A stretch of 64,000 nt of DNA from NCBI GenBank assembly GCA_036279355.1, contig DASUJH010000025.1, forward strand, positions 1 to 64,000, in the 5' to 3' direction. Shown in pieces: positions 1-8,315 of the stretch. A program made the position numbers and the translations under genes. The notes under the pieces were generated by a model that was not told the DNA's origin, did not search any database, and saw only the letters and a program-made list of their open reading frames with translations. Numbering within the stretch: the first letter of the stretch is position 1; each line of letters begins with the position of its first letter. Source of the stretch: Gemmatimonadales bacterium (GTDB lineage: Bacteria; Gemmatimonadota; Gemmatimonadetes; Gemmatimonadales; GWC2-71-9).

Positions 1-70
1 GGTACCCTGGCTCCGAGCCCGTTGGCTCGTCGAGGTCCGCCCACCAGACCTCGCCGCGCTCGATTACCAC
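1..70 (-). CDS. mazF: MazF-type endoribonuclease toxin, N-terminal fragment (runs off window)
   Basis: Reading leftward from a GTG at 70, the first 23 codons give VVIERGEVWWADLDEPTGSE followed by PGY. This is the characteristic opening of MazF/PemK toxins (RGEVWW-DL-P..GSEP), mRNA interferases that cleave RNA when released from their antitoxin. The GTG overlaps the stop of the upstream antitoxin gene by seven bases, so the two are translationally coupled as in known mazEF operons. The rest of the gene lies beyond the window, so its integrity cannot be judged. The identification rests on a short but very characteristic stretch. Confidence 0.75.
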   Translation of the reverse strand, partial: MVIERGEVWWADLDEPTGSEPGY

Positions 71-300
71 TCGGGCGTGCGGAGCGACCGAGCTTGGCTG
101 CGGCGGAGCGGGCGCTCCAGGCGACTGGGCTGCTGCGCGTAAACGCGATCGAGTCGCTCGGTCACTTTGGTATTTTGGTGCTTGGCCAGGAATTCCGCCA
201 CGGCGGTGGCGTACAACTCACTGCGCGAGACCCCGAGACGCCGGGCCAGGGCATCGGCAGATTCGAAGAGCTCGTCGGGCAAGGAGATCGCCGTCTTCAT
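64..300 (-). CDS. mazE: MazE-type ribbon-helix-helix antitoxin
   Basis: A 78-residue protein starts at the ATG at 300. Residues 1-40 have the ribbon-helix-helix pattern: a short beta strand (MKTAISLPDELF), then helix A (ESADALARRLG) and helix B (SRSELYATAVAEFLAKH). A basic tail follows that would wrap the toxin. RHH antitoxins bind their own promoter as dimers and neutralise MazF. A longer frame extends upstream to 945, but it has no homology and crosses the remnants of other modules, so the internal ATG is preferred. The stop overlaps the mazF start, which confirms the pairing. Confidence 0.75.
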   Translation of the reverse strand: MKTAISLPDELFESADALARRLGVSRSELYATAVAEFLAKHQNTKVTERLDRVYAQQPSRLERPLRRSQARSLRTPEW

Positions 301-6283: not shown

Positions 6284-6898
6284 GTGGATCACCTCGTCTG
6301 GGGCGGCCGGAACCTCGACGAGGAAATCGACCGGCTCGAGGCGCTGACCGGCGTCCGCGCCGCCCGCGGCGGGGCGCATCCCGGCGCCGGCACCCACAAC
6401 GCGCTCCTCCGCCTCGGGGCCGCCAGCTACCTCGAGCTCATTGCACCCGATCCCGCACAAGCACCGCCCGCCGGTCCGCGGTGGTTCGGGCTGGACGATC
6501 TCACCGCGCCGGGCCTCGTCACCTGGGCCGCCAGGGCGACGGACCTCGAACGCCGCGTCGCCAAAGCGCGCGAGGCCGGGCTCGATCTCGGCGAGGTGCG
6601 ACGCGGGCAGCGCCGGCTGCGCGATGGCGAGCTGCTCACCTGGCGACTTACACAACCCGAGATTGCTCGGGGCGACGGGCTCGTGCCGTTCCTGATCGAT
6701 TGGGGCGAGAGTCCGCACCCGGCCGAGCGTGCGCCCGCCGGAATCGCGCTCGTGGCACTCGGGGCAGAGCACCCCGACCCGCCGCGCATCCGCCGGATGC
6801 TGGAGCAACTCGGCGTCGAGCTCCAGGTGTCGCGCGGACCGACGCCCGCGCTCATCGCCACGCTCGACACGCCGCGCGGACGCATTGCGCTGCGTTGA
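6284..6898 (+). CDS. Glyoxalase-like (VOC superfamily) protein
   Basis: 204 residues from a GTG. The N-terminal MDHLVWGGRNLDEEIDRLE and the GG-HPG-GTHNALLRLG segment match the Glyoxalase_3 type (PF13468), in which His3 and later Glu/His residues form a metal site. A second half-domain (GIALVALGAEHPDPPRIRRML) completes the beta-alpha-beta-beta-beta pair. Members carry out isomerase, dioxygenase or resistance reactions, and the substrate cannot be told from sequence. It lies 16 bases after the ABC pair on the same strand, so it may belong to that transcript. Confidence 0.75.
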   Translation: MDHLVWGGRNLDEEIDRLEALTGVRAARGGAHPGAGTHNALLRLGAASYLELIAPDPAQAPPAGPRWFGLDDLTAPGLVTWAARATDLERRVAKAREAGLDLGEVRRGQRRLRDGELLTWRLTQPEIARGDGLVPFLIDWGESPHPAERAPAGIALVALGAEHPDPPRIRRMLEQLGVELQVSRGPTPALIATLDTPRGRIALR

Positions 6899-7184
6899 TT
6901 GGAGACCGCCGTCACGCCACGGACATCGTCGCCCGACCCGCTGGCCATGGGGCCGGCGCAGTGCGGGCACCCGCCGAGTTCATGTACTCCCGCCTTGCCG
7001 CGCGCGCCCTGACGCTCGTCGAGGGTACCTATCGCATCGCGTGATGCGCCGCCGTCGCCGGGCGGGCCCACACCGGCTACCTTCCCGGCGCGCCTGCGAA
7101 CGTGAGGCGGGGGTGGAGTGCGCATGACGGGCGCAGGTTCCGCAGCATGGGCGAATTAGGCTGCGGCACCGCAGTTGAATACAA
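6899..7184. other. Intergenic DNA with eroded cassette-boundary sequence
   Basis: No convincing gene is seen. Near its right end an ATTAGGCTGCGG stretch (about 7155) precedes a perfect CTGCGG-CA-CCGCAG hairpin (7161-7174), and the TTAGGCTGCG word recurs at 7186. This looks like the right-hand half of an attC-type site whose left half is not recognisable. Confidence 0.4.
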
Positions 7185-7191
7185 GTTAGGC
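7185..7191 (+). other. attC-like R' core box (GTTAGGC) at the left boundary of the HNH cassette
   Basis: GTTAGGC fits the integron recombination core GTTRRRY and is preceded by GCAGTTGAATACAA, which resembles an L' arm. Integrase cleavage would fall between G and TT, giving the left end of a cassette that carries the HNH gene. Confidence 0.5.
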
Positions 7192-7223
7192 TGCGTCCGG
7201 CATTGCGCCAGGAGGAGGAGATA

Positions 7224-7652
7224 ATGGACACCGGCGAAGCGCGGCAGCTTCTCCTCAAAGAGCATGGGTGGAGCCCTGAAACTCTCGATATCTGGCTGCG
7301 TGCGGACTGCAAGTGCGAGGTTTGCGGTCGAGACCTCTTAGGGTGCATCGATGACTACTTCTACGGGGCTGAGATCGACCACTTGCAGCCGGCGTCTCGC
7401 AAAGGTGGTGATGACGCATCCAACAGGGCGCTGCTTTGCAAGATGTGTAACAGGTTGAAGCGGAATACTGAGCTGTGCGATCCGACGCGGGGATTGCCGC
7501 GAGAAGCGATAGTCGAACTGGCCCGCAAGCACATCGTGCCGATTCGGCTTGACAGGCAGCACAAGCTAGATGCGGCAAAGCGGCTTCTTGAGGTGTTGAG
7601 TCGAGCCCAGAACCCGGCAGGGGCGACCAGTAGCCCAGAACCCGCAGCCTAA
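7224..7652 (+). CDS. HNH endonuclease domain protein, probable integron gene cassette
   Basis: 142 residues from ATG 7224, preceded by a strong ribosome site (AGGAGGAGATA). The HNH fold is evident: CEVCGRDL (first zinc-knuckle pair), AEIDHLQPASRKGGDDASN (the DH of the catalytic His and the later Asn) and LLCKMCNRLK (second Cys pair). Such proteins are nucleases in mobile elements and defence systems. The codon choice is visibly more AT-rich than in the neighbours (aag atg tgt aac agg ttg aag). The stop TAA lies inside an attC-like R'' box and the gene is bounded on both sides by attC-type cores, which points to acquisition as a cassette. Confidence 0.85.
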   Translation: MDTGEARQLLLKEHGWSPETLDIWLRADCKCEVCGRDLLGCIDDYFYGAEIDHLQPASRKGGDDASNRALLCKMCNRLKRNTELCDPTRGLPREAIVELARKHIVPIRLDRQHKLDAAKRLLEVLSRAQNPAGATSSPEPAA

Positions 7653-7775
7653 CCCGCAAATGCAGCCGACAAGCGCGAAGCGGATCAAGCTCCGGGCTCA
7701 GCAACCCTCCGATGGCGCGCTGTGGAACGTGGGTTTTCTTCAAGTCGCTTGCAGCTGATTTGCAAGTCGTTGGGC
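7647..7775 (+). other. attC-like integron recombination site
   Basis: This 129-bp site begins with R'' GCCTAAC (7647-7653, overlapping the HNH stop) and ends with R' GTTGGGC (7769-7775). Just inside, GCAAATGCAGCCGACAAGCG can pair with the complement of CGCTTGCAGCTGATTTGC. The arms match apart from one extra G and a CGA/TG difference, the kind of extrahelical base attC sites use for strand choice. Length, core boxes, imperfect arms and position at a gene end all fit attC. Confidence 0.65.
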
Positions 7776-7816: not shown

Positions 7817-7853
7817 CGGTCACCATCGCCCCCCGAAAAAAGGAGCATCTCCG

Positions 7854-8315
7854 ATGGCCAAGGTGACACCCTTCCTGATGTTCAACGATCAGCTCGAGGC
7901 GGCCATGGAGTTTTACACCGCCACGTTCCCGGACTCCCAAATCAGGAACGTGGCCCGCACTGGCAACGACGGTCCGATCGCCTCCGCCGAGTTCGTCGTC
8001 GGTGGTCAGGTCTTCATGGGCTACAACGGGGGCCCGTACTTCACCTTCTCCGAAGGCTTCTCCCTCTATGTGGACTGCGAGGACCAAGCGGAAGTTGACG
8101 AGTATTGGGACAAGCTCGTCAAGGCCGGCGCGAAGCCTACCCAGTGCGGCTGGATCAAGGATCCGTTCGGCATCTCGTGGCAGATTGTCCCACGGCGATT
8201 CATCGAGCTGATCCGCGACGGGAACCCTAGGAAGGTGAAGGCCGTGATGGAAGCCATGATGACGATGGTGAAGCTCGACGTAGCGGCCCTTGAGAAAGCC
8301 TACATTGAGGCGTAG
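7854..8315 (+). CDS. PhnB-like VOC protein (3-demethylubiquinone methyltransferase-like domain)
   Basis: 153 residues from ATG 7854. The family pattern is clear: MAKVTPFLMFNDQLEAAMEFYTATFPDS at the start, FVVGGQVFMGYNGGP in the middle, and CGWIKDPFGISWQIVP near the end, typical of PF06983/PhnB-like proteins of about 150 residues. These have a VOC fold; most have no assigned reaction. An upstream extension to 7722 runs through the attC-like site and is rejected. Preceded by an inverted repeat, a -10-like box and AGGAG, so it is probably its own transcription unit. Confidence 0.85.
   Translation: MAKVTPFLMFNDQLEAAMEFYTATFPDSQIRNVARTGNDGPIASAEFVVGGQVFMGYNGGPYFTFSEGFSLYVDCEDQAEVDEYWDKLVKAGAKPTQCGWIKDPFGISWQIVPRRFIELIRDGNPRKVKAVMEAMMTMVKLDVAALEKAYIEA

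Follow-up and report, generated by a model that had tools for sequence, protein, structure and literature searches.

An HNH nuclease gene cassette at an attI-like site in a Gemmatimonadales genome

A complete gene cassette with its attC site

The interval 7186-7769 (584 bp, forward strand) of the window, by which we mean the whole 64,000-nt stretch of Gemmatimonadales DNA analyzed, is a complete integron gene cassette, and the locus is an attI-bearing, integrase-less array of this one cassette. The cassette contains a single compact open reading frame in cassette orientation, its 5' end is at the G/TTRRRY position, and its boundaries were set from attI, attC and an 11-bp complementarity between its ends. 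An earlier note on this DNA had proposed such a cassette, and the core boxes, the start codon, the stop codon within R'' and the 129-bp span from R'' to R' were all found where it had placed them. The gene (7224-7652, forward strand) starts with ATG at 7224, encodes 142 amino acids and terminates with TAA at 7650-7652, within R''. Upstream of the ATG, a Shine-Dalgarno-like sequence judged strong, AGGAGGAGGAG, can be read at 7210-7220 (forward strand). A scan for sigma-70 promoters around the cassette found none, and an Rfam scan of the window gave nothing at gathering scores.

The attC site (7647-7775, forward strand; 129 bp) consists of R'' (GCCTAAC, 7647-7653), L'' (GCAAAT-g-CAGC, 7656-7666), L' (GCTG-ATTTGC, 7754-7763) pairing with L'', and R' (GTTGGGC, 7769-7775); in a second arm, CAAGCG (7670-7675) pairs with CGCTTG (7746-7751). 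The asymmetry reported for the inner arms was confirmed: G7662 is extrahelical, and the arms are separated by CGA facing CA. The site therefore has both core boxes, and its L arms pair around an extrahelical base.

As the earlier note had suggested, we searched for the site with an attC covariance model, which was generated from the R and L stems of 13 aligned, complete attC sites, from G008 and G154 only, two genomes of the host's family, with the window's genome left out. The window site matched at 106.9 bits (genome-wide E 1.8e-25), a score to be read with caution in that the G008 and G154 sites had been located by a DNA search with the window locus, i.e. by likeness to the window's attC. 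Elsewhere in the same genome the model recognized one site on contig C27 (11198-11337, 118.6 bits) and two on contig C52 (435-562, 101.6 bits; 1111-1250, 82.9 bits), and the next best match scored 17.6 bits. Over 17 attC sites, 93.5% of the stem cells were paired (slid controls, 40% or less). Changes on both sides were seen in 27 cells, compared to 9.3 in shuffles. In an independent check, the model found nine sites in Gemmatirosa kalamazoonensis KBS708, in tandem, all on the integrase strand, downstream of the integrase and with cassette-like spacing; an integron had been reported on the large replicon of this strain by IntegronFinder 2.0 (PMC9024848). A home-made generic attC scan was set aside, as it missed most VCRs. 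The window's attC had no blastn match among plasmid records.

Folding of the bottom strand, also proposed in the earlier note, gave the expected hairpin, but with an energy that was ordinary relative to shuffled sequences (z -0.12) and was for that reason not used. The evidence for attC is homology and covariation, not energy.

The left end of the cassette, GTTAGGCTGCG, is the exact 11-bp complement of CGCAGCCTAAC, the left flank (outer edge) of its own attC, and these partnered ends indicate that both boundaries belong to one cassette. In 16 cassettes of the host's family, the bases inside the 5' end agreed with the complement of those outside the cassette's own R'' at 76 of 128 positions; the shuffled mean was 52 of 128, and none of 2000 shuffles reached 76. 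Such pairing outside the R box is a general feature of arrays in this family.

The HNH gene is more AT-rich than its surroundings, as had been claimed: its GC content is 0.59 versus 0.70 for the window, and its GC3 is 0.68 versus 0.83-0.91 in neighboring genes, a contrast tempered by the gene 3' of the cassette, whose overall GC is 0.60. That gene (7851-8315), a member of the 3-dmu-9_3-mt/VOC family, has conserved counterparts in G213 (88%) and G396 (77%); there is no attC 3' of it.

The HNH protein and its relatives

The product of the cassette gene matched PF01844 with 37.3 bits (E 3e-9; cut-off 21.4 bits) and possesses the DH, N and CxxC elements of an HNH endonuclease, with C31, C34, D52, H53, N67, C72, C75 and N76 as the invariant residues. 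It shows weak similarity to the HNH domains of IscB, Cas9 and restriction enzymes. A single-sequence AlphaFold model was of low confidence (mean pLDDT 48.9), and no fold search was made from it. To judge by this domain, the cassette most likely encodes a small HNH DNA nuclease that depends on metal and serves an optional accessory function.

Among 102 genomes of the host's family, which include no other genome of the host's genus, a full-length match to the protein was found only in the host genome, with one weak domain match elsewhere, in agreement with an accessory gene. HNH-like proteins, mostly similar in the domain only, were present in 31 other genomes of the phylum. No attC was detected at E 0.01 in the phylum loci fetched, and the best of them (G216) showed no cassette features. 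A DNA search with the flanks gave no relative with the same flanks and thus no example of the empty site; the downstream gene alone was conserved, in G213 and G396, without its neighbors. A search of genome contigs gave one spurious 22-residue match and that of viral contigs none.

Only one relative was found among 72,556 plasmid records, namely a gene carried as a cassette in the superintegron of Vibrio sp. HDW18 (NZ_CP049914.1, WP_240911943.1). It likewise encodes a small HNH protein, 36.5% identical over residues 15-104, and lies between two VCR attC sites; its host is distant and its attC type different. Its reading frame (L089:3962-4222) is interrupted by a stop codon 3' of the HNH motif.

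The earlier note took a nuclease as cassette cargo to suggest a defense role. An anti-phage function, which would be compatible with insertion as a cassette, is possible but on balance doubtful. Restriction systems often contain HNH domains, and Vibrio integron cassettes are rich in defense genes (review, PMC12409362); on the other hand, PADLOC returned only weak matches (best E 1.3e-4), all confined to the HNH domain, the cassette has no partner gene, and the functions of most cassettes are unknown. No match to a system-specific protein of a known anti-phage system, with its partners, was found, recent papers show just some integron cassettes to be defense genes, and the proposed role was not upheld.

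An attI copy at the left boundary

The earlier note recognized GTTAGGC at 7185-7191 as the left boundary. The box is there, but it is the end of something larger. Judged from its sequence, this boundary is a copy of the attI of the genome itself (7156-7191, forward strand; core TTAGGCTGCGGCACCGCAGTTGAATACAAG followed by TTAGGC, with the crossover between G7185 and T7186), a point new to this analysis. Allowing up to three mismatches, we searched the 3.25-Mb genome for the 20-mer GCAGTYGAATACAAGTTAGG (7171-7190) and found exactly three copies, each directly 5' of a cassette, whereas the reversed pattern, used as a control, gave none. One of the copies, on C27, lies directly 3' of the stop codon of an intI fragment, so that the same sequence adjoins intI there, with the crossover at GTTRRRY. 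The bases 5' of the left boundary, GCAGTTGAATACAAGTTAGG, also follow the stop of this fragment and precede the first cassette of C52. Furthermore, the motif TTAGGCTGCG...GTCSAATnnnnGTTAGGC, or a close variant, is located 3' of the stop codon of intI in relatives whose integrase is intact (G284, G193, G237, G021 and G087). The window copy is about 20 bp shorter in the middle than the copy adjoining intI, and it may therefore be less than fully active.

No intI was found within the window, as the earlier note had stated, and none is located beside the window's attI and cassette to make up a complete integron. The search of the rest of the genome that it had recommended yielded a single intI, on C27 (G000:C27:10258-10590; 165.5 bits to TIGR02249, positions 204-314 of 315). 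This is a fragment of 111 residues, the C-terminal third, with residues 1-203 (the N-terminal two thirds) missing; it is 63-76% identical to the IntI of relatives over the same stretch. Other matches to the integrase profile in this genome were weak, discontinuous tyrosine-recombinase hits; 14 control genomes gave matches of the same weak level, none over the cut-off. The claim of a lone cassette holds for the locus but not for the genome, which has the intI fragment and three further attC sites, one on C27 and two on C52, the contig overlapping the window's. With one attC, as against the two or more of the IntegronFinder 2.0 default, the window is not a CALIN, although two sites are present on the adjoining C52; single-attC cases can be true (PMC9024848). 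The assembly is a draft of 60 contigs with breaks at arrays and may therefore lack an intact intI or further cassettes.

The second attI copy is on C52, whose end overlaps positions 1-141 of the window exactly. Its array consists of attI, a PIN/RHH gene pair with attC, a small hypothetical gene with attC, and then a MazF-like gene in reverse. To judge from the contig overlap only, the C52 array probably precedes the HNH cassette by about 9 kb. A MazF/PemK-like toxin gene and an RHH antitoxin-like gene span the overlap (window 1-300, L056 1-419), run opposite to the cassettes and adjoin the last attC of C52.

A stretch of about 400 bp (window 6792-7190; C52, L056, 1978-2263) is duplicated at these two cassette-bearing sites with a 111-bp difference, since the two share a 176-bp segment (7015-7190, forward strand, 93%), which ends at the cassette boundary with attI as its right end, and the 3' end of the upstream glyoxalase-like gene (6792-6903, forward strand), which recurs next to the C52 attI copy with 99% identity.

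Integrons in the host's family

Integrons of Gemmatimonadota are already on record (PMC8618304). Sites of the attC type were found in 66 of the 102 genomes of the host's family, and a full integrase over the cut-off was present in 23 of 61. Where seen, attC sites were downstream of intI on the same strand. Among plasmid records, the integrase of the family is closest to that of Gemmatirosa kalamazoonensis, which makes the Gemmatimonadota affiliation suggested in the earlier note very likely.

Two relatives of another genus have attI copies whose upstream 1.5 kb lacks an intI motif (G284:C31:4782-4798, L120; G193:C411:3120-3136, L116). Both are at contig ends, as if variable cassettes follow, and the copy in G284 still includes the final codons of intI. 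Arrays without intI are already known; the intI-less attI copies are the only mildly unusual part.

Origin of the locus

The HNH gene very probably entered as a cassette inserted by IntI, through attI x attC recombination at the attI copy. The substrate of IntI would have been the bottom strand of attC in its folded form, with the cut falling between the G and the TT of GTTAGGC. Duplication or rearrangement may have moved attI copies away from intI, or an intI beside the copies may have been deleted. The only intI found being a fragment without residues 1-203, the cassettes would now be frozen, unless an intact IntI is absent from the assembly or arrives from outside. We infer, then, insertion by IntI, later loss of intI, present immobility and a nuclease activity of the product.

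In a less conventional scenario, which we consider rather unlikely, attI itself travels in the family: intI-less copies would seed new arrays at other chromosomal places, and one integrase could feed several of them in trans. The copies counted for it are two in the host genome, one in G284 and one in G193.

The three attI/array pieces might instead derive from a single chromosomal integron split by assembly, as its parts or as strain variants. Arrays break at contig ends in drafts (PMC9024848), C27 ends within its own array, and C52 joins the window's contig (C25) at the 141-bp overlap. This is nevertheless improbable: the window copy is embedded, 7 kb from the end of an 81.9-kb contig, between genes unrelated to it, sequence or flanks distinguish the three attI copies, and a different cassette follows each.

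Still less probable is an off-target, attG-type insertion at an unrelated genomic GTT site, with the attI likeness a coincidence. IntI-mediated insertion at attG has been described (PMC12901181), and a lone cassette without adjoining intI would be its expected leftover. But the 20 bases 5' of the crossover match the intI-linked attI, for which the chance expectation is about 1e-6, TTAGGCTGCGG lies upstream in both, and the 20-mer search, with three copies and none in the control, largely refutes this origin. That the gene is itself the mobile agent, a homing endonuclease with incidental boxes, is scarcely credible: HNH domains do occur in homing endonucleases and phage HNH profiles match weakly, but the boundaries are precisely those of a cassette, with a complete attC, no target gene is interrupted, and the other cassettes of the genome carry unrelated genes (PIN/RHH, hypothetical).

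Comparison with known systems and implications

The locus stands close to sedentary chromosomal integrons and CALIN cassettes (IntegronFinder classes), as found in Gemmatirosa kalamazoonensis KBS708, which has attC of the same R''-L''-L'-R' type, one model recognizing both. In Gemmatirosa, as in the host's family, the sites are in tandem on one strand with cassettes downstream of intI, whereas the window has one cassette, attI kept and intI absent, and its attC is 129 bp rather than about 96 bp. In Treponema, intI is transcribed toward attI (PMC3607928), and in archaeal integrons attI is just downstream of intI (PMC9668308); the host's family shares with them attI directly after the intI stop and cassettes in the direction of intI, but they belong to a different phylum and have a different attI sequence. 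Truncated attI copies are known from delta-attI-type cassettes of class 1 and 2 integrons (PMC12901181), where, as in the window, attI pieces away from intI still mark cassette junctions; there the piece replaces attC at the 3' end of the cassette, whereas in the window attI is 5' of a cassette with a full attC.

The HNH cassette locus, though neat, is an ordinary leftover of gene capture by a system common in the host's family. The analysis provides an attC model and an attI motif for this little-studied family, in which integrons are common and often decaying and their cassettes share the direction of the integrase. Since small HNH nucleases recur as cassettes in bacteria that are only distantly related, the gene is a reasonable, though unproven, candidate to assay against phages. 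If the intI-less attI copies are active, satellite arrays served by an integrase elsewhere would become testable.
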